Shown here: in pieces, positions 435-20,078 of the stretch | Numbering within the stretch: position 1 is the stretch's first letter | Layout: every line of letters begins with the position of its first letter | From: a virus | Virus record (IMG/VR): IMGVR_UViG_3300036785_000144 | Span: 1-20,188 of that record | Direction: 5' to 3' (one strand) | Length of the DNA stretch: 20,188 nt | The notes under the pieces: generated by a model | The model's input: the letters and a program-made list of their open reading frames with translations, nothing else | What the model was told of the DNA's origin: nothing | Database searches by the model: none | Translations under genes and position numbers: made by a program

Positions 435-3400
435 CATTCCTCTCCGGATGATGTTGACGCCATTTCCATTTGCGCTCGTCGATTGACTGCGACCTTCTTG
501 AACAGGCCGCCGCCCGATGCGCGGGTAAACGTATTTCTGGGAGCATTGACGTTGACGTCGATCTGGCCGGTGCCCACGACGCGGTGCTCGGTCATCTGTC
601 GGTCGACGTCGGCGCGTCGCATGCCGCTTAGGTCGCCGCGCGCTCCAATCGCGTGCCAGTCCGAACCTGTGTCGCTGCGACCCGTGACATCCCGGTAGCC
701 GCTTAGGTCGCCGCGCGCTCCAATCGCGTGCCAGTCCGAACGCGTGTCGCTGCCGCCCGTGACATCCCGGTAGCCGCTCAGGTCGTCTCGCTGGCTGGCG
801 ACTTGCGTCTGCGGCTGGACGATCTCATGGCGAATGTGATACTGCCCCGGCCTGTCGCCTATGGTGATAGGTTTGTTGGAGATGACATCGCGCCCGTATT
901 GACCCGTCCCGAGGTAAGCACTTCTCGGATCTTGATTGACCCCGACGCCGCGAAATCCGGTTATCTGGCCGTCTTTGCCGAAGATCGGCACGGCTCCGGT
1001 GACGTGCGATCCGGTCGACCCGACGCCAGCGCCTTGCTTGACCGCGATGTTGATGGCGTTCGGGTCGCTTGAATATCCAGCACCTTCCCGGCCGCCGAAA
1101 GCGTTCCAGTTCGACGCCACCGCTGGGTTTTGAGGTGGGACGCCGCCGTGCTCCTTGACAACGGCCGCCATGAATTGTCCGCAGGTCGCTTCGCTTAGGT
1201 CGATGTGGTGCGCCTGCATGTAGGCGCGGATATTGTGCGGCTGGGCACCGGCCAGCGTCATCGCCGTCAGATCGCCCGCAAACTGCGATGGAACGCCATG
1301 CGTTAGACCTCCCCCGCCGTCCCCGCCACCGCCGCCCAAGCTAGCGTACTTCTGGCCGCCGCCGCCGCCAGCGCCAGCGGCCGCTATTTGACGTTGGACC
1401 CACTTCTTATCTGCGTTTTCCTGAACGAAGCGTTCGCGGCCGCGGCCGAAATCTCTGGTGACGGGCGCGCCTCCGCTATGCACGCCGCCGCTTTCGTTGC
1501 CGGTGGCGAAGCCGCTGACATTTGAACCAGCGATTACTTGCTTCGTGATGTCGTCGATACGTGTTTGCTCGGCGCCTGATATCGGCCGATCAAGTTTGCT
1601 CGTCGTCGTTGTTGGATAGTAATGCTTATCGCGGAGTGTATCTGTGAGGCTTTTGCCGCGCGATGACGCGCGATTAATAACGGATTCAATGTAGGACTGC
1701 GTGGCCTCTGCGCCCTGGCCGCCGACCTCGGCCGCCGCTGATGCCGCGAGCAACCGGCGCGTTTCCGGGTTCTTAAGTTCTTCGGCGAATTTTGCGCGCT
1801 GCTCTGCAAGCGATCCGAGAGGCTCGCCACCACCACCGCCGCCACCATCACCGCCTCCGTCGCCTCCGCCGCGTCGCCTGCCTCCGCCGCCTCCACCGCC
1901 CGGCATGCCACCGAGCCCGCCCATGCCGCCGCCCGTGATGCTGCGCAGGATGCCGCCGGGGCCGCCGAGCATTCCGCCCAGGCCGCCGCCACCACCGCCT
2001 CGGCCGCCGAATCCGGGCAAGCCGCCGAGTCCGCGCATTATGCCGCCCAGGCCGCCGCCGCCCATCAACCCACCAAGTATTCCGCCCAGACCACCAGCGC
2101 CGCCGCCGGCGCCCAGGCCGCCGAGCATGCCGCCCAGACCGCCACCACCACCGCCGCCACCTAGAGCGCTGAGCATGCCGCCCAGGCCGCCACCAGCGCC
2201 GCCGCCCATGATGCCGCCAAGCACGTCACCTAACCCGCCGCCGGGGCCGCCGCCCATGAGAGCGCCAAGCATCCCGCCCGGACCGCCGCCCATCAGTGCA
2301 GCCATCATGCCGCCTGGAGCGCCGCCAGCACCGGCAACCGCAGCTGCCATACCACCGCCACCGGGATAGATGATGCCGCGCAAGGCATCGTTCAGCTGCT
2401 TGAGCTGCTCGGTGTTCTCCTTAACCTCCCGCGAATGCTCGTCAGCACCGCCGCCGCCGAGAGCGCCGAGCGGAATGACCGCCTCGGGCCCGGCTTCGCC
2501 GATCATGGCCAATGTTGCACGTGAAACAATGCCGCCGTGCTGCATATGCGGCACGGTCTTCTCCTTCTTCATCATGTCCTGCACGGCTTTTTCGCGTTCG
2601 ATGTTTTGTTGGTTAAATGGATTGACTTTTTGCCAAAATCCTTCCGGTGCTGGATGCTCTTCATTGATCTTGCCGAGTTTTTCGACCTGTCCTACATATC
2701 GCTCCATCATGCTATCGATCCAACGCAGAGCATTCATCAATGGACTCGACGTAATGGATTCATTGAACCAGGCATCCGTGATTTTTTTCCATTCCTGCCC
2801 AATCCGCGTCGTCAAGGCTAAATATTTTTGCGCGGCCTCGTCGCGCGCCTTCTGCGCCTTTTCCTCTTCGGCCGTCACCGCTTGAAATCTATTCAGTAGA
2901 TTGAGATCGGGAATTCCCAAGATTTCCCCGAATTGCTTCCGACGCTCCGCGATGCGTTGTTGGGACAGCCCGGCGGCCTCCATCGACTTTGTGATCTTCG
3001 CCAACCCTTCCTCGGCGTGATTGGCATAAGCGGTCATATCGCCGGATTCGGCCAGTCGCTTCGATTCGGCCAGGAAGTCCTGCATCGCCTGCAACGGCTC
3101 GCCTCGCAAGCCCTCGAGCAGCTTCTGCCGCATCGGGCTCATGACGAGCGTCATTTGATACATCGAGTCCGCCAGACCCTGCGTGTTGCGCGCTATCTGG
3201 CCGGCGGAAAGTCCCCATTGCTCCATCTGTTCGCGCATGCTCTTGAGCGTAGCAGCGCCAGTTCCTGTCTGGATCGAAAGCTGATTCAATCGCACCAGCT
3301 CGCTGGAATACTTGGCGAGCGCATCGAGGCCCTTTTCGGCGGCGTAGCCGAACGCCAGCATTCCGGTGGCGGCGCCGCCGATCCCTCGCAGGAACGGCAG

Positions 3401-4179: not shown

Positions 4180-4548
4180 TTATGTGAGGCTGGTTTCGGA
4201 ACAGGTCACGCCTTCCCAGCGGACGCGCACCTGGCCATCGCGGGTGTTGGCTTCCAGGTCGGCTTTGCAGCTGGCCTGCCCGAGCGCGTATTGCTTGCCG
4301 TTGGCGAGCTGGGCGACGACGGTGACATTCACCTGGGCCTCAAGGTCCAGGAGATTGAGGTTGGGCACCGTCGAGATATCGCCCTCGATATAGGGCACCC
4401 GCGGCAACTCCTGGTAACCGTGGATTCCGTCCTGGCCCGCGATATAGGTGCGCGCGACCACGCTCGGGCTCACGGTGAAATTGCCGCGCAGCGACATCTG
4501 ATTGCCATCGACCAATAGGGAGGCGATACCCGCGAATCGTTGGGCCAT
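4180..4548 (-). CDS. Tail tube protein (Mu gpM-like)
   Basis: 122 residues immediately downstream of the sheath gene. The sequence opens MAQRFAGIASLLVDGNQMSL and contains GQDGIHGYQELPRVPYIEGD and the predicted strand NVTVVAQLANGKQYALGQA. These match my recollection of Mu gpM-type tail tube proteins, which are about 120 residues long. The tube is the inner rigid channel inside the contractile sheath. The start is an ATG with CAGGAG about nine bases upstream. The sheath-tube-chaperone-tape measure order is the standard one and supports the call. Confidence 0.88.
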   Translation of the reverse strand: MAQRFAGIASLLVDGNQMSLRGNFTVSPSVVARTYIAGQDGIHGYQELPRVPYIEGDISTVPNLNLLDLEAQVNVTVVAQLANGKQYALGQASCKADLEANTRDGQVRVRWEGVTCSETSLT

Positions 4549-4584
4549 GTTGATTGCTCCTGATTACTGTGGGGGGGGGAGGGA

Positions 4585-6159
4585 TCAGCCGACGGTCGGC
4601 AGGATGCCGGTGACGCCGGTGGGGCTCGGCGCGGCGATCAGCGTGTCGATGCCGAGATTGTATTGCAGCCGGAACTGCGCCAGCACGGCGAAGATGCGCA
4701 GCTGGTTGATGAGATCGGGCGGATACAAGACATCCAGCCGATTGGGGTCGGTGGAATTTCTTTCCACCAGAAGGTTGGCCGCGAATGCCACGGCGTTCTC
4801 GACCAGGCCGTTGAACTCGTCGAGCGAGTACTGCGCGATGAGCTCGGCCTTGACGACGCCGGGCGTGACGATCGCCTGCCCGGGTCCGAAGCGGGTGCCG
4901 TCGTCGGCCAGCTTGCAGCGCCCGAACTTGTTGGTCACCACGGCCCGCTGGTTGCGCAACAGCTTGGCGAGCGTCGCCAAGGTCGTCACTACTTCATAGG
5001 CGTCGTCCGGCGTGCCGTAGAGATTGAGCTGGTAGGTCGTCTGTTCCCGGGCGATCATCGGCTGGTTGTCGGCGCCGGCCTTCTGGATCGCAATGCCGTT
5101 GTTGGCGAGCGTCTGCAGGTCGAGGAAATCAAAGCGCTGATGCAGCGGCGCGCATTTGATTTCGTTGAGCGACAGGGTCTGCAGCGGGCGCGCCGGATCG
5201 TTGGTCAACGCGCGCTGCGCCTTGGCGGTGTAGGCCGCCGTCCATTCGAACGCGGGCGACGGGCTCGCGACCTCGAAGCCCATCACGGAGAGGACGCCCG
5301 AATTCTGCGTGTTGCCCCAGGTCTGCAACTCCGACAACGTGCCGCGCATGGCCGAGAAGATGTGTCCGAACAGCTGCCGCTGCCAGCCCCAGCGACCCTG
5401 ATCGGAGAAGCCGAACTCCTCCTCCCAATCCATTACGGTGCTCGAGTCCGTGTACGGCTCGGCGACATATTCGAATGGCTGATCGCCCATATTGGCGATC
5501 GTCGTGGTCGGATCTGGCACGCCGGCGCCGCCGGTCAGCATGCCGGTTGCCGGCAACGTCACGGTCAGGCCGGGCGGCAGCATCTCACCGCCGATCGTGC
5601 CGTAGTAGTTGATCATCACCGAAATCTCGTTGCCGCTGACGCCTTTCCAAAGCGCCGTCAGCGTCACGATATCGGTGGCCGCGGCGGCCGCGACCGGCAG
5701 ATCAAACATGGCGTTGATGGCGGCGGCCATTGCGGTGGCGATAGCGCCGGCCGTATCGGTGGCGCCGACATTGACCGGAACATGATCGCCGGCGATGTAG
5801 AGATGGATGGTTCCCGCATCGGTCGGCGGCGTCGCGATGGTGATCGTGCCGCTCGCAGCCGTTGCACCAACCGGCTCGGCAAGACCAACGCCCCAGACTT
5901 CGTTACCGAAATTGTTGGCGAAATAGGCACGGAACATTCGGCTGAGTTCGGAGCCCTGGCCGAAATGCGCGTCGGCCTGCGCCTGCGAGCCGATGGCAAT
6001 CGGAATGTCGGGCGCTACGTCGCCGATCGTCGCCAGCATGGTGCCGACGATGAGGGCGCGCAGCCCGAGCAGCGGCAGGCCCGCCATGCTCGGGTCCACC
6101 TCGACCCAGTACAGCGGGACTTTGATATTGGAAGGAATCTGGTTAAACGAAATTGGCAA
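4585..6159 (-). CDS. Contractile tail sheath protein (Mu gpL-like)
   Basis: 524 residues. The N-terminus PISFNQIPSNIKVPLYWVEV is the characteristic opening of Mu gpL-type sheath proteins. The middle (about 110-220) is a variable insertion rich in Ala, Thr and Gly, ending VTLPATGMLTGGAG. The C-terminal half carries the conserved sheath core, including REQTTYQLNLYGTPDDAYE and NKFGRCKLADDGTRFGPGQA. The protein forms the contracting outer tail cylinder, making this a myovirus. The start codon is TTG at 6159, supported by a strong AGGAGG five bases upstream; no ATG fits better. A run of nine G (plus strand 4571-4579) sits in the gap before the tube gene. Confidence 0.93.
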   Translation of the reverse strand: MPISFNQIPSNIKVPLYWVEVDPSMAGLPLLGLRALIVGTMLATIGDVAPDIPIAIGSQAQADAHFGQGSELSRMFRAYFANNFGNEVWGVGLAEPVGATAASGTITIATPPTDAGTIHLYIAGDHVPVNVGATDTAGAIATAMAAAINAMFDLPVAAAAATDIVTLTALWKGVSGNEISVMINYYGTIGGEMLPPGLTVTLPATGMLTGGAGVPDPTTTIANMGDQPFEYVAEPYTDSSTVMDWEEEFGFSDQGRWGWQRQLFGHIFSAMRGTLSELQTWGNTQNSGVLSVMGFEVASPSPAFEWTAAYTAKAQRALTNDPARPLQTLSLNEIKCAPLHQRFDFLDLQTLANNGIAIQKAGADNQPMIAREQTTYQLNLYGTPDDAYEVVTTLATLAKLLRNQRAVVTNKFGRCKLADDGTRFGPGQAIVTPGVVKAELIAQYSLDEFNGLVENAVAFAANLLVERNSTDPNRLDVLYPPDLINQLRIFAVLAQFRLQYNLGIDTLIAAPSPTGVTGILPTVG

Positions 6160-7593: not shown

Positions 7594-8253
7594 TCAAACT
7601 TCGTAACGGGTGTAATGGGAAAGCAGCGACGTGATCGATGATTGGATCGCACTGTTGCTGCCGGCGCCGAGCGCGGCCTCAAGAATTCGGGCTGGATCGT
7701 GAAAAGATATGCGGGCCTCTTTATGCGCCATCTGCCGGATGCCGGCGACGGTCGCGAGCGACGCGAGAAGTTTTGATTGGAGATTGAGCAAGGCGACCGC
7801 GCGCTTGAGCGGGGGCGGCGCCTCGGTCGGAAGATCATAGCCGCCCCAATAGGTGACCGCGACCGCCTCGATCCACGGATAAGCGAGGCCGCTGGTGGCA
7901 TCGATCAATTCGATTTTGCCGGAAGCCTCTTCCAGCTCGTAGCTCGTGGGATCGAGCACCGTCCCGATCGGCGACTCGACGGACTCGATGTCGGCTTGCT
8001 TGATCGGCCAATGCGACGGGAAGAGGCGGCAGCCGCCATTGAGCTCGCGCCATTCCTCGCGGACTTCCTCATAGGCAAAGATGCGGTTACAGAGTCGCAT
8101 CACCGTCGCGGAATTTATGTCGATGAACATCTGCATTTGCGCATCGTCGGTCGTGTCGGTCAGCGCAATGCCGGCGAGCGTCTTCGCTTCGTCCAGACTC
8201 ATGAGGTCGAAGTTGGTCGCAGGCGTCAGGACGGTGATAATTCGGTCGCTCAT
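7594..8253 (-). CDS. Head-tail connector, gp6-like
   Basis: 219 residues. It starts [20 protein letters not shown] followed by DEAKTLAGI, the usual opening of gp6-type connectors in which a 'ltlaEaKahLri' helix follows a short strand. Further matches to the family layout are [43 protein letters not shown] and [20 protein letters not shown], the last being the conserved beta-turn plus 'P..lk.A' helix. A helical C-terminus follows. The protein forms the ring under the portal. The ATG overlaps the stop of the collagen-like gene (ATGA), indicating translational coupling. It is somewhat longer than the shortest gp6 proteins but within the family range. Confidence 0.85.
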
Positions 8254-9440
8254 CCGGTCTCATCTTGGAACTGTTCGAACAGCGCCCGCAGCTCCAGCGC
8301 AGGCCCTTCGGTGCCGTCCGACATCTTGGGGATCGCCGTGTACTTCTCGCGATCGACTTTCCAGCCGGCGATCCTTGCCGGCAGCGGCGCGATGCCGCGC
8401 TCACCGCGCTCGCCACGTTCGCCGCGCGGACCAGCAACACCGCGCTGGCCTTGGCGAGTCAGCAGCTGCCAGCCTTCCCCTGGGCACGGGCCCGGATTGT
8501 CCTTCAGGGCGATGAAACTGCCGCCGTTCAGAGCGACAATTTCCAATTCGCAGTAGGTCGCCTCGGCGTCGAATGTGCCGCACGGCTTGGGCGATCGCGC
8601 TGGCCGGCCCGGAGCTGCGAGGACGATCCAGTCGTCGCCGCCGGGCGGGCGGCCGGTGTCGCGCCGAGCCTGATACGTCCCGCCAAGGTGGGTGACGACC
8701 TCGCCTTCGTAGTGGACGCCCTCGAGCCAGGATCTCGCGAGCGGCAATTTGCCGGGTTTACCCTCGAGGCCCTGCTTGCCCTCGAGGCCCTGCGGTCCTG
8801 CCGGCCCGATCTCCCCGCCGGCGCCCGCGGGGCCCGCGGGACCAGCTGGGCCCGGTTCGCCCCGAGCGCCGGCGGGGCCATCGGGACCGATCAGACCTTG
8901 CGCGCCTTGCGCGCCCTGCGGTCCAGCTGGACCAGCAGACCCGGGCTCCCCGGGCTCACCAGCGACGCCCTGTGGCCCGTCTGGCCCTATCTCCCCGCGC
9001 TCACCGACCGGCCCGGGCTCCCCGCGTTCACCGGGCTCGCCCGCCGGACCACGCTCGCCGGGGTGGCCGGACAGCCCGGCCGGACCTGGCTCGCCGATAT
9101 TGCCGGCCGGACCAGGTGGACCAGGCGGGCCGCTCTCGCCGACAGCGCCCGTCGGGCCGACCTCGCCACGCTCGCCTTGCCGGCCCTCGGCGCCATCGCG
9201 CAAGGACGCCAAGCGAGCGACGACAGCCGCCTCCAGCTCGCGCCGCAAGGCCGCGCCATCGATGCGGAGCTCGGCGATCGCCGCCCGGGCGTGCGCCTCG
9301 ATCAGCTCGACGGTGCGCTCGCCTTGCCGTTGCTGCTCGGCCAGAACCCCGCCGAGCGCCTCGCGCCAAGCGTCAATTAAAACGTCTTCGCGCTCGACCG
9401 GTGGCGGCGGTAAGTCTTCTGAGTTCCCGTTGGACGGCAT
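8250..9440 (-). CDS. Collagen-like repeat protein with two carbohydrate-binding-like modules
   Basis: 396 residues. Residues 1-20 are Pro/Glu-rich, and 20-82 are a long amphipathic helix that could seed trimerisation. Residues 83-231 are 50 consecutive Gly-X-Y triplets without a break, rich in GPAGPAG and GERGEPG. Residues 237-277 and 288-330 are two related modules sharing an E-V/I-V...GG-T/S-Y/F.A..D-T/N pattern ending in a Trp, which resembles CBM5/12-like carbohydrate-binding modules. Seven more triplets follow (331-349), then a short C-terminal domain. I chose the ATG at 9440 because AAGGA lies nine bases upstream; the longer open frame to 9797 is a portal shadow. It overlaps the portal gene by 68 bp. 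Likely a trimeric fibre or head decoration that binds glycans; whether it sits in the virion is inference. Confidence 0.88.
8750..9192 (-). repeat. Gly-X-Y coding repeat tract of the collagen-like gene
   Basis: About 150 codons of period-9 nucleotide repeats encode the uninterrupted collagen triplets. Units vary in third codon positions and in X and Y residues, so the tract is not a recent perfect expansion. Confidence 0.85.
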
Positions 9441-10818
9441 CGGAATAATCCTTCGGCGGCTCCTTCGGCTCGGGCGGCTTGGGCGCTTCCGGCTCGGGCG
9501 GCTTGGCGGGAGCCGCAGGCGGCGGCGCGTGCGGTCCTGGCGCTGGCGGAATGGCGCTGGCAGCCGACAAGGGGACCACCTGCTGCTGTACCCTTGGCTC
9601 GTCCCCGAATTTCGCTTTGGGCAGTCCCTCCAGCGCGCGCGCCTCGTTCGGCGCGTAGATGCCGCCCTGGACGCCGCGCGCGAGCGCTTCAATTCGTTCC
9701 TTCTGCGCCGAGCGCAGGAGCACGCTGGTATCAAATTCGACGTATTCGTCGGGCAAGCCCTTGAGACCGAACGTGAAGCCGAACGCTTCCTCGACATGAT
9801 TGAGCGCGAAGCCGAGCCCTGTGGATATCCAGAACTGCATCAGCGCTTCGGTCGAATTCATGCCGCCCTGGACCGGCAGGCCGAGGATCTGCATCGGGAT
9901 GCGGAAGGCGAGCGCGATATGCTCCTCGGCGATCTTGAGGACTTCGGCGAGCTGCGCATCCTTGCCGTGAACCGACCACGGCTGCACTTTCAGCCCGGCA
10001 GTCAGGATCGGGGTTTTGCCGACGGCGAGGCCCTTTGATTTCTCGTCCCAGCGATCGGTCAATGCCTGAACCTGGTCCTTATCGAGCACAAGATCGGTTG
10101 ATAGGACCGCGCTCGGGCGCGCTTGGTTCAGATAGAAACTAAGCTGTTGCTGATTGATCGCTTCGCTGACGCTGACGTCGCCGAGCGCCGCCAGCAACGG
10201 GGATTGGCCCCACAACGGGAACGGAAAGCGCCGGCTGCGATCGGCATGCAGCCGCACATGAAGCACGTCGCGTTGCGGCACGACCAGCGCCTCGTCCTCC
10301 AGCCGGCGCTCGATGATCTGATTGCCGGCGAGCCGATAGAAGACCTCGCCGTTATAGGCGAGCTGCGGGCGCGAGATGTAGGAATCCATCAAATGGAGTT
10401 CGGAGATTTCGAAGCGGTCATTGCGGAGGCAGAGGCAGTATCCGTTGCCGTCCATGTAAAGCTGACGCGTCAGGTTGAGCATGAAATCGGAGATGGATTG
10501 ATAGTCATTCGGATAGCGCAGGATGCGCGCGAGGGCCGAATTCTTGACGCGCTCGCGACCGCCCTTGGAGTCGGTTCGCCAATGGTCCCCAGAACACATG
10601 GCCACCGTCTGCGAATACGCCGACACGCAGGCCTCGACGACGGCCGACCGCGTCGACCACGGCAGGACGTTCTGGCCTAACTGCCAAAAATTCGTCGAGG
10701 AACCATCCGGCAGCCAGCCGCCGGAAATCGGCAGCTGATAAGGGCCCGGGCGAGGGGCGCCCTCGACCGCGCGCGCAACAGATCGCAACGCGCCAGCAAC
10801 GAGAGCGAGAGCGCCCAT
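9373..10818 (-). CDS. Portal protein, HK97 family
   Basis: 481 residues. Matches to the HK97-type portal layout include [20 protein letters not shown] (wing helix), [20 protein letters not shown] (start of the crown/stem region), [27 protein letters not shown] and [20 protein letters not shown]. Residues from about 425 to 465 form a Pro/Ala/Lys-rich linker ending in a basic tail. The portal is the dodecameric DNA channel at one capsid vertex and the docking site of the terminase. Unusually, the gene lies downstream of the capsid genes and about 7.6 kb from the terminase. The start is the ATG at 10818; its ribosome site is weak. The 3' end overlaps the collagen-like gene. Confidence 0.93.
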
Positions 10819-10833
10819 TCACGTATCAGCCCG

Positions 10834-11145
10834 TCAAGTCGGCTTCGACGGCGTTGTCGCCGGCTGCGCTTGCCGCGTCTTGTACTCGGCAGGAGAGCCC
10901 GGCTTTTTCGACTCGGGCTCAAGGTTTTTCTTATTCAGGGTCACGTTCGGATCGAGGTCCGATCCGTCCGGTTCGTGCTCGTGAAAATGAGCGCCGAGAA
11001 CCGCAAGGTCATTCTCCTCTTGGGTCGGCGTCGGCTTTCCCTTCGTGCGCTCGACAAAATCCTGCCGCGACTTCTCGGTGGCCTTTTGGTCTTCGGCTAG
11101 CTGCCGCTTCGCTACTTCGTTCTCATGTTGTGGCTGGTCTGCCAT
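10834..11145 (-). CDS. Small hydrophilic protein of unknown function, between capsid and portal
   Basis: 103 residues, starting MADQPQHENEVAKRQLAEDQ. The first half is charged and probably helical (about 5-35), the middle contains PTPTQEENDLAVLGAHFHEH, and the C-terminus is Lys/Pro/Thr-rich. I chose the ATG at 11145 because CAGGAG lies about seven bases upstream; the longer frame from 11256 lacks such support. I do not recognise a characterised family. The extreme hydrophilicity and the neighbourhood of capsid and portal would suit a scaffold, assembly factor or head-filling protein, but this is only context. The sequence shows no membrane segment or catalytic motif. Confidence 0.72.
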   Translation of the reverse strand: MADQPQHENEVAKRQLAEDQKATEKSRQDFVERTKGKPTPTQEENDLAVLGAHFHEHEPDGSDLDPNVTLNKKNLEPESKKPGSPAEYKTRQAQPATTPSKPT

Positions 11146-11259
11146 TGGGTTGCTCCTGTTGCGGGGTTGCGGTACGCTTGTGATGAGGCGGCGGTTGGAT
11201 GCCCAATCAGCCAATGAGTCCCTATCAGCGGTCTCGATCGCCGCCTCACCAATCAATCA
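11146..11259 (-). other. Longest intergenic gap; contains a 9-bp inverted repeat
   Basis: This 114-bp gap follows the capsid fusion gene. It holds a perfect inverted repeat, GAGGCGGCG at 11185-11193 and CGCCGCCTC at 11239-11247, separated by 45 bases. The ribosome site of the next gene lies after it. I see no convincing promoter and no T-run that would make the hairpin a terminator. Confidence 0.5.
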
Positions 11260-13545
11260 TCAAGACCAAGTCACGCCGGTCGTGTAGGCGATCGTTCCAG
11301 CGCGTCTTTGAACCCAATTGAGAGGCATGACCATTCTTAGGGCGATGCTGTCAGTTTGGAACAGCGAACGCTGCGGAGCAGCAACAACACCGGGCGATCC
11401 AGGACCAACAAGATCAAGTGGTGTCGTGTCCTCCATATGTAGGGTCGCCTGGTCCGAGAGCTCCAGCCGAGGTGCTTCGCCACCAACAACAACAAAGTCC
11501 GCGGCGTCGACCAGGATCATCGTTTTCGGCGTGACGGTCGCCGAGGCGATGATTGGAACGGTGTTGAGCGTCCCGCCCTTAATCTCGTCGCGGAACGGGA
11601 AAATACCCGTGTTCGGCGCGCTCGCCAGCGATGCGGATAGGACGTCGCCCGGGTTCATCAACCAAGCCGGCGACCGGATATTGCCATAGGTTCCGAGCAC
11701 CAGCGCCTGGATCAGCACCTTGATATCTCCAATCAAGGCCGGCAGGCCGCCGCCGGCGGTCGGCGGCGTCACCGTGAGGCCGTTCAACAAACCGGGCGGC
11801 CGAATGACGGTCGCCGGGTTCGCGTCCATCAACACATTGTCGATGGCAACAGCGGTGTCGATCTGAATCGCCTCGCGCAACAAACCCTCGATCGCGGGAA
11901 TCGAGTGGTCATTCATCTCGCGGGTCCAGACGCTGATCACGGCCACTTTTTTCGGAGTGAGCGTCTGCGACGTGAATGCGCCCTGGCGCACCGGGATTGC
12001 CATGCCTTCACCAACAAACGAGCCGGCGATTGTTGGCGTCCTCGAACGGGTGGGAATGATGATCCTGCCAGCGTTGCCGAAATTCAGCGTGAGCCCCTTG
12101 GCGGCAAGTCTCGGCAGGATGGCGTCGGGAACGAGGAGCTGCATAAAATCAGTGTAGATTTGTTGGACCAGCTCTGCCGCCCATCCTACCACCGTGGTCA
12201 TTGCCGGCGCGGAGGCGGCGCGTAGGACAACCTCGCACATTCCCTGCGTCACCTCATCCTCGCCGTAGATCTTCCGCCGCACCTCATCCGCCTGGCGCCC
12301 GGTGGTCTTGACGAAGTAGCCAACCGTCGCGGCGCGGATCAGATAGTCGAGCGGGTCGAGCTCCTTCTTCGCCGGCTTGCGCGCCGGCGGCATGAACGAG
12401 CTGCTGGAGCGCGCCTTCTCGTTGACCATAACCAGGGCGCGGCTGCCGTTGCCGTTGCCGTTGTCGATGGTGCCGCCGAGCGCCTTCTCGGAATCGACCA
12501 GCGCGGTGTGCTGGCGCTCCAGCTGCTTGATGTCGGCGTTGAACTTCTGCGTCGCATCGAGGTCGGCGTCGCTGACGTTGGCGTCGTTGACGTGCTCGAG
12601 GTGGGCCTTCAAGGCGTCGCGCTTTTCGACAAGCTGCGCCTCCATTTCGATAATGCGTTGAGCTAACGTCGTCATGACGCTGCTTCCTTCTGACCGAGAT
12701 GTTCTGGCGTGCTTGCCGTTGAGCCCGCGGTGCCTGACCTTGTTCCTGTTGCCATGCTTGGCGAAAACGAGGTCGAGGGTCTGCGGGGAGAGATTGAGCG
12801 ACTTGGCAACCGCCAGCGCGTTCGGGTTGGCGGGGACAGAAACCAGCGAGGTTTCGATCAGCTCCTGCCTGATGAAGCGCAGGCCGGCGTATGGATTTTT
12901 CTTGTCGAGCGGTTCGCTTTCGAGATCGCGAAAGCCGACGCTGACGGCCCGAAGAATGCCGGCGTCGATCAGCTTGCGGATTTCGTCGATGCGATCGGAG
13001 GTGCCTTTGGGCGCCAGCGTCAGCTTGCCGCGCAGGCCCTTGTTCTCAACGCGGAGATTGGACCATTTTCCGATCGGGAAACTGGGCATGTGATTGAACA
13101 GGGCAATGGGGTTCTTGTTGAACGACTCGATGTCCCAGCCGTCAGCCGAAATCGTGTCGCCCATCCGGTCGATCGACTCGTCGGACAGGATGAACTCGAG
13201 GCCCTGGACTTCCTCGGCATGGGTCTTGCGCCGCATCTTGCCGGCGCCGCGCGAATCCCAGGCGAGCTGGCAAAGCTCCTCGGCCTTATCGTCATCGACG
13301 TCGCTGAGTTCATCCGTGCAGCGATCCATGAAGTCATCTTGACTCTCGTCATCCTCGGGATCGGGCACATCGACGTTGTCGTCGTCGTCGTCGAATTGCT
13401 TGTGCGCGTCGGCCCACATAGTTTGACAAGCGGCGACGGCTTGATCATGCGGTCGCTTTGTGCCGCCGCTCTCGCCCATCATTTCGGGCACGCAACGTCC
13501 CATCCAATCAGATTGCGTTTCATCCTTGCCTGGGCTGATAGGCAT
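11260..13545 (-). CDS. Prohead protease - scaffold - major capsid protein fusion
   Basis: 761 residues in one frame. Residues 1-100 hold two related segments with Cys pairs (QSDWMGRC...CQTMW and QDDFMDRC...CQLAW) separated by an acidic linker. Residues 113-250 resemble an S78 (HK97-type) prohead protease: GDTISADGWDIESF, FNHMP with candidate His152, LRAVSVGFRD with candidate Ser202, and ETSLVSVPANPNALAVA. Residues 255-290 are a basic linker. Residues 291-355 are a coiled coil like the HK97 delta scaffold. Residues 400-761 are the HK97-fold capsid domain, with PAMTTVVGWAAEL, FVGEGMAIPVRQG and RSLFQTDSIALRM. The ATG at 13545 has GGAGG upstream. The protease would cut the scaffold away during maturation. 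Compared with phages that encode protease and capsid separately, this is a fusion, and an internal start at 12675 may also yield capsid alone. Confidence 0.9.
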   Translation of the reverse strand: MPISPGKDETQSDWMGRCVPEMMGESGGTKRPHDQAVAACQTMWADAHKQFDDDDDNVDVPDPEDDESQDDFMDRCTDELSDVDDDKAEELCQLAWDSRGAGKMRRKTHAEEVQGLEFILSDESIDRMGDTISADGWDIESFNKNPIALFNHMPSFPIGKWSNLRVENKGLRGKLTLAPKGTSDRIDEIRKLIDAGILRAVSVGFRDLESEPLDKKNPYAGLRFIRQELIETSLVSVPANPNALAVAKSLNLSPQTLDLVFAKHGNRNKVRHRGLNGKHARTSRSEGSSVMTTLAQRIIEMEAQLVEKRDALKAHLEHVNDANVSDADLDATQKFNADIKQLERQHTALVDSEKALGGTIDNGNGNGSRALVMVNEKARSSSSFMPPARKPAKKELDPLDYLIRAATVGYFVKTTGRQADEVRRKIYGEDEVTQGMCEVVLRAASAPAMTTVVGWAAELVQQIYTDFMQLLVPDAILPRLAAKGLTLNFGNAGRIIIPTRSRTPTIAGSFVGEGMAIPVRQGAFTSQTLTPKKVAVISVWTREMNDHSIPAIEGLLREAIQIDTAVAIDNVLMDANPATVIRPPGLLNGLTVTPPTAGGGLPALIGDIKVLIQALVLGTYGNIRSPAWLMNPGDVLSASLASAPNTGIFPFRDEIKGGTLNTVPIIASATVTPKTMILVDAADFVVVGGEAPRLELSDQATLHMEDTTPLDLVGPGSPGVVAAPQRSLFQTDSIALRMVMPLNWVQRRAGTIAYTTGVTWS
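12664..12692 (-). promoter_or_regulatory. Internal ribosome binding site and ATG for a capsid-only product
   Basis: Inside the fusion gene, AGAAGGAAG lies about nine bases before an in-frame ATG at 12675-12673. Translation from it would give 471 residues starting MTTLAQRIIEMEAQLVEKRD, which is where a stand-alone HK97-type capsid precursor with its scaffold would begin. The codons just upstream encode a basic, low-information linker that looks like a former untranslated leader read in frame. Confidence 0.55.
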
Positions 13546-13575
13546 GGGAACCTCCGACTTTGATTGATTGGTCTT

Positions 13576-14790
13576 TTAGACGGCGTCGAGTTGCGCGAGC
13601 GCGCTGTCCCAGTCATCCGCCGCCGTTTGCCGGCGCAGCTTGATGTTCGGATACCATTGCGCGAGCCAGCGCCAGCTGGCCCAATGACCGAGCAGCAGCT
13701 CGACGTGCGGATGGCCAATGGCGCCGGCCAGATGCACCGCCGCCGTATCGACGCTGACGATCCGATCCATCGCCATCATCATGGCGGCGCAGTCGGCGAA
13801 GTCGCCGATCTGATGGACGCGCACGCCGACAGCTGCCGCATCGATATCGCCGTGCTTCTGCACGCTATGCAAATTTGCATCGCCGCCGCCGAGCGCGGCG
13901 ACCAGGCGCTCGATTGGGATATCGCGCGGGTAGTCGCCGGGGCGCACCGTGCTGGACAGCCAGGCGATGCCGATGTGTGGACCGGGCCCGAGCTGGGCGC
14001 GCCAGCGCTCTATCGCCGCCGGGTCGACGCGCAGATAGGCATCGTGACCGCCGACGCTCGCCGGCATGACCGAAAGCATATCGAGGACGTGCAGGATCGG
14101 AAGGACGAAATCGGCCGACACCGCCAGCCCGCTGGTGACCGGCGCGATTTGCTCGGCAAGCGCCCGCAGCTCGTCCGGCACCTTGAGCAGCACGTCAGCG
14201 CCGATCGCCATCAGCGTCGGCACGTAGCGCAACGTCATAATCGTGTCGCCGAAGCCGTGCGCGTGCAGCAGCAGCAACCGCTTGCCGGCAATGTCCTGCC
14301 CGTCCCAGAGTCTGAAGCCCGTCGCCAGCGCCTCGGTCACGGCTGGGCGCGTGAACGGCGGCTGCCGCTCGCATTGCCGATATTCGGAGAACCCTTCGCG
14401 CCAGCGGCCGAGCGCCAGCAGGACAAGCGAGCGGTTGAAGCGGGCAAACAACGTCGGCGCGATTCGGATCGCCGCGTCAAACTCGACCAGTGCCTCGGCA
14501 TTGCGGTTCTCGCGGGCGAAAGCGCGCCCGCGCTCGAAATGAGCCACGTATTCGTCGATGCTAACCTCCCCCCGATTGTCGCCCACGGCTAGGATCGGAC
14601 GCCGGCTGACAGCCTTGTCGCCCTGCACCTGCAGGACATCGCCATCAGGCATCGCCGCCTTGTGGCCGTTGCGGCTGCGCACGTTGAGCAGCTCGCCTTG
14701 GGCCGTCAGGCCGCGCCAGCCGTGCTCGGTCTCCTCGAGCGCGATGATGGCGTCGGTCGGCAGATCGTCGGTGTATGAGGCGAGTTTCAT
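13576..14790 (-). CDS. TPR-containing glycosyltransferase (heptosyltransferase-like fold)
   Basis: 404 residues. Residues 1-75 are an uncharacterised N-terminal part. Residues 80-135 form about two tetratricopeptide repeats (YVAHFERGRAFARENRNAEA, then ALVEFDAAIRIAP and FNRSLVLLALGRWREGFSEY). Residues 158-400 match the glycosyltransferase domain often fused to TPRs: LWDGQDIAGKRLLLLHAHGF then GDTIMTLRYVP, PHIGIAWLSS, and VSVDTAAVHLAGAIGHP followed by WRWLAQWYPN. Such enzymes transfer sugars from nucleotide-activated donors and resemble GT9/GT41 proteins. The ATG overlaps the stop of the upstream capsid gene (ATGA), so the two are translationally coupled; the longer frame to 15027 is a shadow. 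Lying between two capsid genes, it may glycosylate a virion protein; changing host surface glycans is the alternative. Neither substrate nor donor is visible in the sequence. Confidence 0.87.
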   Translation of the reverse strand: MKLASYTDDLPTDAIIALEETEHGWRGLTAQGELLNVRSRNGHKAAMPDGDVLQVQGDKAVSRRPILAVGDNRGEVSIDEYVAHFERGRAFARENRNAEALVEFDAAIRIAPTLFARFNRSLVLLALGRWREGFSEYRQCERQPPFTRPAVTEALATGFRLWDGQDIAGKRLLLLHAHGFGDTIMTLRYVPTLMAIGADVLLKVPDELRALAEQIAPVTSGLAVSADFVLPILHVLDMLSVMPASVGGHDAYLRVDPAAIERWRAQLGPGPHIGIAWLSSTVRPGDYPRDIPIERLVAALGGGDANLHSVQKHGDIDAAAVGVRVHQIGDFADCAAMMMAMDRIVSVDTAAVHLAGAIGHPHVELLLGHWASWRWLAQWYPNIKLRRQTAADDWDSALAQLDAV

Positions 14791-15872
14791 TTCCAGGCAG
14801 GCGTCAGCCATGCAACGGCGCGCGGGTCGCGCAGCGCCCAGGTCACCGGCCATTTCATTTTCAATGCGATGGTTTCGGTCTGGAACAAACTGCGCGCGGG
14901 AGCGGCCGGCGCCCCACCGTTGACGATCGGCAGCGGCGTGTCGTTCATATGCAGCTCGCCCGCCGTGGCCGCCTCGACGTCCGGCATCGGACTGAGCGCC
15001 GCGACCAGCGCCTCCGGCGCGACGCACATCAGATCGTTGCCAACCGCGGTGCTCGCCAGCGCGATTATGTTTCCGGGCTGCAGCACGAACCTCATCTGCA
15101 TCGCGGCGACGCGTCCCGGCGAGCCGATCAACACAAACGGCCCATTGCCGGCGACCGCCGACACCGAATTGATCAAGCTCGCGACGTCGTCGAAGAACGC
15201 CTGGAACGCATCGGTCGACGCGCTCGGCGTCGAGGCGGTGACGCCATTACGCAATCCGGCCGGCGCCGCTGGCGTGGCCGCAGCGTTGCCAAACAGCGCG
15301 ACGTCCAGTGCCGCCGCCGCCGATCGCATCAGCACGTCGCCGACGAGGAATTCGGCATTCGAGGACTCGATCATTTCGCGGGTCAGGACGCCGATCGCCG
15401 CCAACTTGTAGGGCTGCAGCAGCGCCGCCGTCGCCGCGAGCTGGCGCACCGGGATTGGCGCGCCTTCAGCGACGAAGCCCGCATTGGCGGCGCCGGCCAC
15501 GAAGCCGGGCGCGCTGATCAGCCCGTAGCCGTCGAAGATCAGCACCAAAGATTGCAGCAGCAGCTGCGCGCCGGCGGCGGATGGGCCCAGGCCGATCAAT
15601 CCATCTTTGACGATTCTGTGGGCGAGCTCGGCGGCCCAGCCCGCTACGGTGGTCATCGCCGGCGCCGTGGCGGCGCGCGTCAGCATTCCGGCAATGGTCT
15701 TGTCGGTCGGCCAGAGCCAGGCGGCGATCTGGTTTGGCGGCCGATGCGTCGCGCGCGCGATCGCCAGCGTCGTCAGCAGGCGAACGAAGAGATTGCCGCC
15801 CGGCGCCGGCGGCTCGCGAGCCTCGCGCTGCGCCTCGGCGCGCGCGCGCAACGGTTCGACCAGCGCGTTCAT
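14787..15872 (-). CDS. Second major capsid protein paralogue (HK97 fold), no protease or scaffold
   Basis: 361 residues from the ATG at 15872, which has GGGAGAG upstream; the longer frame to 16115 is a shadow. It is clearly homologous to residues 440-761 of the capsid fusion. Shared blocks, in the same order, are PAMTTVAGWAAEL (about 71-83), FVAEGAPIPVRQ (133-144), an LTREM block (163-167), GLRNGVT (206-212), ELHMNDTPLPIV (306-317) and RSLFQTETIALKM (327-339). The N-terminal 65 residues are short, basic and Pro-rich, with no long coiled coil, so it lacks the scaffold part. The core is complete, so it is not an obvious pseudogene. It could be a minor capsid or vertex component, a second hexamer type, or a capsid replacement in progress. 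It is coupled to the glycosyltransferase by an ATGA overlap. Confidence 0.88.
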   Translation of the reverse strand: MNALVEPLRARAEAQREAREPPAPGGNLFVRLLTTLAIARATHRPPNQIAAWLWPTDKTIAGMLTRAATAPAMTTVAGWAAELAHRIVKDGLIGLGPSAAGAQLLLQSLVLIFDGYGLISAPGFVAGAANAGFVAEGAPIPVRQLAATAALLQPYKLAAIGVLTREMIESSNAEFLVGDVLMRSAAAALDVALFGNAAATPAAPAGLRNGVTASTPSASTDAFQAFFDDVASLINSVSAVAGNGPFVLIGSPGRVAAMQMRFVLQPGNIIALASTAVGNDLMCVAPEALVAALSPMPDVEAATAGELHMNDTPLPIVNGGAPAAPARSLFQTETIALKMKWPVTWALRDPRAVAWLTPAWK

Positions 15873-15888
15873 GATTACTCTCCCTGGA

Positions 15889-16245
15889 TCAGATCGCGAC
15901 CGGCGGCTCGATGGCAACGGCGAATTGGCGCCGCTCTGTCTGCACAATGGGATGTGCAGCCGTGCCGGATCGCACCTTGATGAATGCGATGGCTTTGAGA
16001 AAGTCACCATACTGCGAGACGACAAGCGCCGATCCGGGCCTGACCACGACCATGATGTCGTCGCCGTGCCTATCCACAAGATCGTTGAATCCGGTGCCGT
16101 CCGACGAAATTGCAAACGTCAGATTGGCTGGCGTCCATTGTGAGGGCATCGTGATGCGGACAATCGTGCCGTCCGTGCAGTCGAGCGCATCCGACAGCGA
16201 CTCGCCGGCCTGGATGAACGGGCCGTTGAGAATTTCTAGCGCCAT
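15889..16245 (-). CDS. Small virion-module protein of unknown function
   Basis: 118 residues, starting MALEILNGPFIQAGESLSDA. It appears all-beta: alternating hydrophobic strands such as GTIVRITMPSQW, ANLTFAISSDGTGF, DDIMVVVRPGSALVV and RQFAVAIEPPVAI. A strong AAGGAG lies seven to eight bases before the ATG. The gene ends 16 bp before the stand-alone capsid gene, so the two belong to one unit. No membrane segment or catalytic motif is visible. I cannot name a family; the size, beta character and position next to a capsid gene would suit a head decoration protein, which is inference only. Confidence 0.8.
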   Translation of the reverse strand: MALEILNGPFIQAGESLSDALDCTDGTIVRITMPSQWTPANLTFAISSDGTGFNDLVDRHGDDIMVVVRPGSALVVSQYGDFLKAIAFIKVRSGTAAHPIVQTERRQFAVAIEPPVAI

Positions 16246-16304: not shown

Positions 16305-16910
16305 TCACACCGGCTGCGGGTGCTCGCCTTCTCCCGGAGGCTTCCCGCCCACCGGCGGCTTGTCCGGATCCGTTGGCGGATGCGGGCGATCAGGCGGACT
16401 GCCTGGGAAGAAACCGGGCGGATACCAGCCCGGAGGAATTCCAGGGAACCAGACCGGCGGCTTGGTGCTGCCCTCCGGTGGCATTGGACCGCCACCTACA
16501 TGAACAGGCGGGCCCTGATCAGGTCGATCAGGCGGCGAGCCAGGATACATCGGCGGATACGGAGGCATCGGACCACCGCCGGGATACATTGGCGGATACA
16601 CCGGACCACCACCGGGATAACCCGGGTAGATCGGCCCACCGCCGGGGTGACCGGGGTAGATCGGTCCACCACCAGGATGACCCGGATAGATCGGTCCACC
16701 GCCAGGGTGTCCCGGATAAATGGGACCGCCGCCGGGGTGACCCGGGTAAACCGGCCCGCCGCCAACGTGTCCAGGTGGCGGCCACACACCCGGCGGGTAG
16801 ACCGGGCCACCACCAACACCCGGCGGCGGGTAGTAGATCGGCGGCATGACCGCGGGCGGCGGCGCGCCGGGCTGAATCGGTTCTACGACAACAAGATAGG
16901 TTTGAGGCAT
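16305..16910 (-). CDS. Proline/glycine-rich tandem repeat protein
   Basis: 201 residues. After a short start (MPQTYLVVVEPIQPGAPPPA) nearly everything is Pro, Gly, Tyr and His. Residues 51-100 are five 10-residue units of the form GGPIYPGHPG. The flanks are looser variants with PPMYPGGGP, VHVGGGPMPP and a C-terminal SPPDRPHPP stretch. There is no signal peptide, membrane segment or enzyme motif. A very good AAGGAG precedes the ATG, implying strong translation. The composition predicts an extended polyproline-type or disordered chain, for example a flexible fibre, spacer or surface coat. I do not know a characterised relative. It is the last gene before the hairpin at 16269, upstream of the capsid block. 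Confidence 0.82.
   Translation of the reverse strand: MPQTYLVVVEPIQPGAPPPAVMPPIYYPPPGVGGGPVYPPGVWPPPGHVGGGPVYPGHPGGGPIYPGHPGGGPIYPGHPGGGPIYPGHPGGGPIYPGYPGGGPVYPPMYPGGGPMPPYPPMYPGSPPDRPDQGPPVHVGGGPMPPEGSTKPPVWFPGIPPGWYPPGFFPGSPPDRPHPPTDPDKPPVGGKPPGEGEHPQPV
16611..16760 (-). repeat. 30-bp tandem repeat, five units
   Basis: Five consecutive 30-bp units encode GGP(V/I)YPG(H/Y)PG. The units differ mostly at third codon positions while the protein unit is almost constant, which suggests older repeats held by selection on the protein. Confidence 0.9.
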
Positions 16911-18422: not shown

Positions 18423-20078
18423 CTAACCTATCAAAGCATCGATGTCGATTGGCTTCGTGATGCGGTCGCGCGCTCGAATTCCCATCAGCATGGCCAGCGC
18501 AACGGCGCCATCGATGCGGAACCTAGCCTTGCTCTTGTCGATCTTTCGAAAGCCGGCCGGATCCATGACCGCGACCGCGTTGGCGACGTTCCAATTCAGG
18601 CAGGGATTATTTGGATGCTGCAGCTTTTTTTCGTCGAGCGCCTTCATCAACGCATCAACGGCGGGCCCCATGTCCCGAAACCCTTGCCCCCAAGGGACGA
18701 TGCGCAGCCCGTCGCCCTTCGGCGCGCGGTTCACAAGACGATGCAAATCATCCGGCGCCTGGGTCGCATCCTCATGGGCCTGCAGTCCGATGCGATCGAA
18801 TTCGCGCAGCAGGTTCTGCATTCGCCAGCGGTCGTAAGCAAGACCGCGCACCTGAAACCTGGTCGCCAGCTCGGCCAGGAACACCGCGATCACCTCGTGG
18901 TCGATGCTCCTGCCGGGCGTCGTCCGCAGATGGCCGCTTGAAACCCACTCTTCGTATCGGTGACTGCCGCTGCCGAAGTCGCGCGCGGAATGTTCCGCCA
19001 GCCACTCGATCGGTTTCCAAAAGAACGCCTGGACCCGACACGGATCGGTCACCGATCCAACAATCAGGGCGGTGAGATCGTCAACGCTCGAAAGGTCGAG
19101 GGCGCCGTAGACTTCCTCGCCGTCGATCAATTTTGCCGGGCCTGCGCATTCTTGCCACATGACGCGACTGATCAGCGTCGAGATTGGTGAGACTCGTTGG
19201 TTGAGGAACAAATTGCGTGTCTTAGGTTCTTCCGCCGGAAGTCTCTTGGCCTTTTTTATCGCGCTTACCAAATCCTCGCGGTCGCGAAACGTGCCGAGCG
19301 CGGGATTGGCCTTCGCCCATTGTGCTTCATCGTCCAGATCGCAGCCCTCGTCGGCGGCGTAGAGATGACAAACAATGCTCGAGTCGATGCCCGACAGCCC
19401 GTCATCGATCAACTTCGAGAGAATATGCTCCGGGTCATTCGACTGCGTGCTGATCACGATGAACAACGGCTCGTCGCGCGCGCCGAAACTGGTATCGAGG
19501 ACGTCGTACAGATCGCGGCTTTTCGCCTGCGCCAGCTCGTCGTAGATCACGACCGACGGAAGATAGCCGTGCTTCGTTCCAGCCTCGGCCGACACCGCTC
19601 GATAAATCGATCCGGTGCTGCGCCCAATCATTGTCTTGGTCGAGGGGATGACGTCGATTTTTCTGCGCAGCTCGGCGTCCTGTTCGACGAGCTGCTTGGC
19701 AAACTTGAAGACAATGCCGGCCTGGTCGCGATCGTTCGCCGCACTGTAGATTTCTCCGTTGGGTATCGCCTCGGGCCCGGCCAAATGGGCGAGCGCGATG
19801 GCGGCAATTAGCGCTGTCTTCCCGTTCTTCCTCGCCACCGAGAGGATCGCACGGCGCACAATGCGGCGCAGACCACGGTGTGGCTCGTAGACATCGCGGA
19901 TGAATCGCCGTTCCCAAGGGTCGAGCTTGAACGGCTTGCCCTGACCGTGCCCGCTCGGGATGGTCAGATGCTGGATGAAATCGATGACTCTCTTTGCGCG
20001 GTTGCGCCCGTGCGCGGACCGCTTGATTGACGGCCGGCGACGGTCGGTCGCCGACGCGTCAGCATCAATAGACGTCAT
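18423..20078 (-). CDS. terL: Terminase large subunit (TerL, HK97-like)
   Basis: 551 residues, full length for the Terminase_1 family. ATPase motifs: a Walker A variant in SVARKNGKTAL (80-90), Walker B in VVIYDE (176-181), and the coupling motif FIVISTQS (206-213). Nuclease motifs: ALDLSSVDDLTAL with Asp328, LAYDRW with Asp416, and RIDGAVALAMLMG with Asp523. It cuts concatemeric DNA and pumps it through the portal into the prohead. The ATG at 20078 overlaps the stop of the upstream partial gene (ATGA). The next gene here is a lysis amidase and not the portal, an unusual order. A small terminase subunit is not in the window and would be expected further right. Confidence 0.95.
   Translation of the reverse strand: MTSIDADASATDRRRPSIKRSAHGRNRAKRVIDFIQHLTIPSGHGQGKPFKLDPWERRFIRDVYEPHRGLRRIVRRAILSVARKNGKTALIAAIALAHLAGPEAIPNGEIYSAANDRDQAGIVFKFAKQLVEQDAELRRKIDVIPSTKTMIGRSTGSIYRAVSAEAGTKHGYLPSVVIYDELAQAKSRDLYDVLDTSFGARDEPLFIVISTQSNDPEHILSKLIDDGLSGIDSSIVCHLYAADEGCDLDDEAQWAKANPALGTFRDREDLVSAIKKAKRLPAEEPKTRNLFLNQRVSPISTLISRVMWQECAGPAKLIDGEEVYGALDLSSVDDLTALIVGSVTDPCRVQAFFWKPIEWLAEHSARDFGSGSHRYEEWVSSGHLRTTPGRSIDHEVIAVFLAELATRFQVRGLAYDRWRMQNLLREFDRIGLQAHEDATQAPDDLHRLVNRAPKGDGLRIVPWGQGFRDMGPAVDALMKALDEKKLQHPNNPCLNWNVANAVAVMDPAGFRKIDKSKARFRIDGAVALAMLMGIRARDRITKPIDIDALIG

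Follow-up and report, generated by a model that had tools for sequence, protein, structure and literature searches.

Dedicated vertex capsid proteins have been viewed as a peculiarity of bacteriophage T4, in which gp24 forms the eleven pentamers, shares about 20% identity with gp23, loses a propeptide of 10 residues compared with 65 in gp23, can be replaced through bypass mutations of gp23, some of which map to the A domain, and probably arose by duplication of gp23 (PMC9958956). The satellite SaPIbov5 encodes Ccm, a capsid protein homolog with a shorter delta domain (PMC8569155, PMC5052747), which is 24% identical to the helper capsid protein, is confined to the pentamers and makes prolate heads isometric (PMC8569155). 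The phage-inducible chromosomal islands (PICIs) PmCI172 and EcCICFT073 carry genes for an integrase, an AlpA/MerR-type regulator, a primase, a small terminase subunit (TerS) and a capsid homolog, and head-size redirection is suspected for PmCI172 (PMC6092414). A search of the open literature for a pair of HK97 major capsid proteins (MCPs) in one phage turned up only T4-type cases. Here we describe two HK97-type capsid genes, MCP1 and MCP2, in a 20,188-base viral fragment, IMG/VR record IMGVR_UViG_3300036785_000144 (hereinafter, the window), from a soil phage whose relatives infect Bradyrhizobium. The two genes form a conserved pair that selection keeps together, and only one of the two proteins carries the assembly machinery. 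Phylogenetic analysis places MCP2 among solo capsid proteins encoded on small satellite-like islands of Alphaproteobacteria, and, by analogy with the systems above, we lean slightly toward a role of MCP2 as a vertex (pentamer) protein.

MCP1 (11260..13545, minus strand, 761 residues) is a fusion of a prohead protease, a scaffold-like linker and an HK97-type capsid domain, whereas MCP2 (14787..15872, minus strand, 361 residues) has neither protease nor scaffold, as the first-pass annotation of the window had already suggested. The same annotation described the two proteins as homologous, with blocks shared in the same order, and these blocks are indeed real and collinear: in a BLASTP comparison, 359 positions align at 34% identity (E 1e-39), and a profile-profile comparison of the two families yields a probability of 100 (E 6e-60, 334 columns). 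In MCP1, Pfam searches identify Peptidase_S78 (residues 128-245, window positions 12811..13164, minus strand, E 1.5e-10), which, judging from its family, probably acts in head maturation, and Phage_capsid (residues 461-688, E 2.5e-7); the protein passes the PF05065 cut-off, which makes it a member of the capsid family by sequence, and matches PHROG 617 over its length (E 2e-86). MCP2 matches neither Peptidase_S78 nor Phage_capsid at the Pfam level; it belongs to the capsid family through its match to PHROG 617, “major head protein” (E 3e-13). The part of MCP1 that is homologous to MCP2 spans residues about 397-761 (11263..12357, minus strand), and the maturation cleavage site presumably sits just upstream of it. 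The shared block is preceded by about 22 residues in MCP2, compared with about 396 in MCP1. AlphaFold models of MCP2 and of the MCP1 capsid domain (predicted local distance difference test, pLDDT, 80.7 and 72.9, respectively) match known HK97-type structures, the former with the best Z of 16.2 against the HK97 prohead (223-245 residues) and the latter with the best Z of 19.6 against HK97 capsids (236 residues). Both shell domains are thus predicted to adopt the HK97 fold, and the structural prediction that could have spoken against two capsid proteins supports them instead.

Scans of viral contigs detect 110 relatives with MCP2 as the query and 32 with MCP1, and a profile scan for the combined family detects 459; metagenomic fragments make up the bulk of these. 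The order large terminase subunit (TerL) – MCP2 – (glycosyltransferase-like gene) – MCP1 – orf140 – portal is kept across dozens of contigs, with MCP2 identity down to about 45%, and it recurs in prophages of cultured Bradyrhizobium; the first-pass annotation had proposed to look for the capsid-glycosyltransferase-capsid arrangement in other phages. Specifically, a search of 266 genomes from the genus of Bradyrhizobium stylosanthis BR 446 reveals five prophages, in three genomes, with MCP2 and a downstream MCP1; one genome (G206) harbors three separate prophages (L243, L245, L246), each with both genes. In the prophage of strain BR 446 (L116), MCP1 and MCP2 are both intact. A tblastn search of 50,697 phage records with MCP2 gives no match, so that no isolated phage helps. 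Of the 99 distinct sequences of the MCP2 class, 97 have a single uninterrupted frame of full length, in line with the earlier view that both copies are intact and with no sign of constant decay, and MCP1 is found on the same stretch in 68 of the 99.

The ratio of nonsynonymous to synonymous substitution rates (dN/dS) in pairwise comparisons is 0.05-0.33 for MCP2 and 0.05-0.15 for MCP1; MCP2 is under purifying selection, and it diverges faster than MCP1 (mean distance 0.44 vs 0.30). Over 20 loci, the distances of the two proteins correlate with a Mantel r of 0.86, or 0.71 after removing the effect of the portal, whereas terminase distances do not follow (r 0.19), which indicates that the capsid genes stay paired while the terminase is exchanged. 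A third gene travels with MCP2. This gene, located between MCP2 and MCP1 (13576..14790, minus strand), starts at 14790, overlapping the MCP2 stop codon by 4 bases (ATGA). When only loci whose TerL-MCP1 interval is complete are counted, the gene never occurs without MCP2: 29 of the 32 MCP2 loci have it, as opposed to none of the 11 that lack MCP2 (Fisher 6e-8, a test that ignores relatedness). The first-pass annotation called it a glycosyltransferase; the gene is there, but the label can be retained only tentatively because both its TPR and its GT9 matches fall below the curated cut-offs.

Phylogenetic analysis connects MCP2 to capsid proteins outside phage head operons. In a tree of 137 rows, MCP1 and MCP2 separate and a third clade, MCP3, appears, members of which co-occur with MCP2 and MCP1 in some phages. 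MCP3 is a third HK97-type capsid gene, found in L101 (1052-3176), L145 (2833-4953), L151 (5055-9184) and L152 (1618-5641); L101 and L145 thus encode three capsid proteins each (MCP2, MCP3 and MCP1). In a maximum-likelihood tree of 75 rows, MCP2 and MCP3 join solo capsid proteins of Paracoccus and Phenylobacterium (support 98/97), and MCP1 groups with single-capsid, protease-fused phages. In a tree of 62 rows that includes 24 solo sequences, MCP2 and MCP3 are each monophyletic and are nested in a clade (98/99) that otherwise consists of solo proteins; the second capsid protein of a Bradyrhizobium erythrophlei prophage, a divergent MCP2, nests with other solo proteins. This nesting recurs under different alignment and sampling.

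In the neighborhood of the solo genes are integrases, small terminases, regulators of the AlpA/MerR type, and genes for primase or replication. In 23 host genomes searched for portal, TerL ATPase and S78 proteins, no match falls close to any of the solo genes whose contig and position were compared, and 10 of these genomes lack a portal match entirely. Three of the islands, 9.5-12 kb in size, are flanked by direct repeats: a 10.3-kb island of Paracoccus aeridis (L125, 2577-12924; 47-base repeats at a tRNA-Asn gene), a 12.1-kb island of Rhizobium sp. Root1203 (L132, 3897-16030; 42-base repeats at a tRNA-Pro gene), and a 9.5-kb island of Mesorhizobium (L140, 2363-11855; 19-base repeats resembling those of L132). 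Each contains an integrase gene and a solo HK97-type capsid gene, with no portal, TerL or protease found; the Paracoccus island additionally encodes a primase, an AlpA-like protein and TerS. By gene content, these three islands look like satellites of a rhizobial or alphaproteobacterial kind; throughout, “satellite-like” denotes a call from gene content, supplemented by the repeats for these three. Nor need all solo genes belong to satellites, since at least one (L130) has a tape-measure gene nearby. A satellite inserted into the phage late region was rejected, as none of the island genes (integrase, AlpA, primase, TerS) has a homolog near MCP2 in 27 phage stretches.

The most natural interpretation of these trees is that MCP2 was probably taken up by phages from the solo-capsid pool of the islands, a direction that we infer and favor but do not consider proven; MCP3 and the divergent MCP2 of B. 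erythrophlei would then represent further uptakes. With equal costs, the labels on the tree require five changes from a phage root, a count that is consistent with three acquisitions by phages out of the solo pool. We give close to an even chance, though somewhat short of it, to the more specific proposal that all three are independent domestications of the capsid-remodeling protein of the phages' own satellites and now either make up vertices or protect the phage from size redirection by satellites.

With respect to function, these observations are compatible with a head built of two HK97-fold proteins with divided labor. MCP1 would supply the protease and the scaffold-like linker, make the hexamer lattice and be cleaved on maturation; scaffold-free MCP2, presumably a virion component, would co-assemble with MCP1 and most likely make up the vertex pentamers, thereby determining the local curvature and perhaps the size of the head. 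The vertex role is preferred because MCP2 has the anatomy of gp24 and Ccm and appears to belong to the family from satellite-like islands; among the options raised in the first-pass annotation, namely mixed capsomers, vertices, a size variant or a recently acquired capsid, it seems the best.

Several points weigh against this view of the role and origin of MCP2. The computed results do not discriminate between pentamer and hexamer placement. The main structural difference of MCP2 from MCP1 is the absence of a loop of about 14 residues (NTGIFPFRDEIKGGT, MCP1 residues about 645-659, 11569..11613, minus strand), which the order of structural elements places in the A domain; this absence fits a vertex role but is weak evidence, given that the loop is missing also from MCP3 and from nearly all solo capsid proteins, and it was dropped as a specific vertex signature. 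Single-MCP relatives do without MCP2, which is therefore dispensable to the architecture. The approximately unbiased (AU) test rejects one clade of all phage copies (p 2e-45), one clade of all extra phage copies (p 1e-5) and a clade of MCP2 and MCP3 alone (p 0.003), but the groups in these tests were named post hoc, from the trees. Finally, the satellite-to-phage direction rests on equal transfer costs and on solo capsid proteins that have long branches; raising the cost of uptake reverses the preferred direction.

Among the alternatives, it is conceivable, albeit rather unlikely, that MCP2 is mixed into hexamers or forms an alternative shell, with the MCP2:MCP1 ratio switching head size or shape, instead of making the vertices of every head. 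Redirection by capsid homologs is known for Ccm and suspected for PmCI172, and the satellite-like solo proteins lie in the MCP2 clade; Ccm, the solved precedent, however, acts via pentamers, and without scaffold and protease MCP2 could not build a shell alone. An unlikely variation on the satellite theme makes MCP2 an anti-satellite device, a phage copy of a satellite-type pentamer protein that outcompetes the size-redirecting protein of the satellite. The nesting of phage MCP2 and MCP3 among the solo proteins would agree with this, as would two Bradyrhizobium genomes, G003 (L225/L117 and L262/L122) and G034, that contain a single-capsid MCP1-type prophage together with a solo capsid gene elsewhere, possibly a helper and its satellite. 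Yet in the co-occurrences found, the prophages that accompany solo genes have a single MCP, and none of the three genomes with MCP2 prophages contains a solo gene, numbers too small for a test.

It is improbable that MCP2 is a duplicate of MCP1 that arose within the lineage, in the manner of T4, with long branches misleading the tree. The location of both genes in one operon, their 34% identity and the probable origin of gp24 speak for such a history; nevertheless, in each of three trees of varied sampling and alignment, solo proteins come between MCP1 and MCP2, the AU test rejects the single clade that duplication implies (p 2e-45), and single-MCP phages branch within the MCP1 side. Of the original description of the two genes as paralogs, homology therefore stands and simple duplication of MCP1 does not. 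We regard as very improbable a virion or morphogenesis protein of the HK97 fold without a position in the shell, such as a portal-vertex collar or an encapsulin-like compartment: encapsulins do appear among the structural matches of the MCP2 model, but HK97-fold proteins match encapsulins generally and the MCP1 model does likewise, and the location in the head operon and the co-divergence with MCP1 favor the shell. A recent acquisition that is useless or in decay is a hardly credible account of MCP2, its faster evolution notwithstanding, given the intact frames, dN/dS well under 1 and the spread across divergent phages. Conservation and trees together rule out recent duplication as well as recent acquisition, and the suggestion of a recently acquired capsid gives way to an old, syntenic pair that is under purifying selection and co-diverges.

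The late genes of the window are all on the minus strand, in the order TerL, amidase-like gene, small genes, orf118, MCP2, TPR/GT9-like gene, MCP1, orf140, portal, collagen-like protein, tail sheath and tape measure. TerL (18423..20078, minus strand) is identified by family matches; in the nearest relative (L003), about 1.1 kb of additional sequence, which could be an intron, an intein or an insertion, interrupts the terminase gene (2973-3209 and 4284-5636). A proline/glycine-rich repeat protein with YPGHPGGGPI units (16305-16910) is encoded upstream of MCP2, and few relatives have one. The small conserved orf118 (15889..16245, minus strand), which adjoins MCP2 and is present also in single-MCP relatives, is a possible decoration protein. 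The conserved orf140 (10834..11256, minus strand) sits between MCP1 and the portal gene (9373..10818, minus strand; PF04860, E 5e-62), and a collagen-like protein is encoded directly behind the latter (8250-9797), with a similar gene at the equivalent place in related prophages. The contractile tail sheath (4585..6159, minus strand; PHROG 165, E 1e-156) identifies the phage as a myovirus. Stenotrophomonas phage SOVA965 (L112, 4182-5587) was rejected as a second two-capsid example: the products annotated as its two “major capsid proteins” correspond to consecutive halves of a single capsid profile, and a frameshift or an error has probably divided one protein.

Compared with the described systems, the pair resembles T4 gp23/gp24 in that one phage encodes two HK97-fold capsid proteins of low mutual identity and in that MCP2, like gp24, is short where its partner has the propeptide. 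Unlike the T4 proteins, MCP1 and MCP2 lie outside the gp23-type sequence family (no match to this Pfam family at E up to 1), the protease and scaffold are fused to MCP1 instead of being encoded by separate genes, and MCP2, in contrast to the probable gp23-derived gp24, does not appear to derive from MCP1. A large group of phages unrelated to T4 shows apparently the same division of the capsid in an HK97-type, protease-fused system; some of its members carry three capsid genes, and a cultured host strain makes the division testable. In its protease – linker – capsid order, MCP1 is similar to PHROG 617 and PAJU2-type fusions, although PAJU2, FSL SP-016 and RHph_X2_26 have a single capsid gene beside the terminase. 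The likeness to Ccm, going by its published description, consists in an HK97-fold homolog of the phage capsid protein with the scaffold domain shortened or absent, and in a sister family that sits in satellite-like islands; however, Ccm is encoded by the satellite and retains a delta domain of 87 residues, whereas MCP2, with about 22 residues in its place, is encoded between TerL and portal of the phage itself. The phylogeny connects a structural gene of the phage with capsid proteins encoded on satellite-like islands, and the exchange of shell proteins between parasite and phage becomes directly testable. The islands with solo relatives of MCP2 have a gene set similar to those of PmCI172 and EcCICFT073; the latter are gammaproteobacterial, and the islands described here are rhizobial or from Paracoccus and Phenylobacterium.

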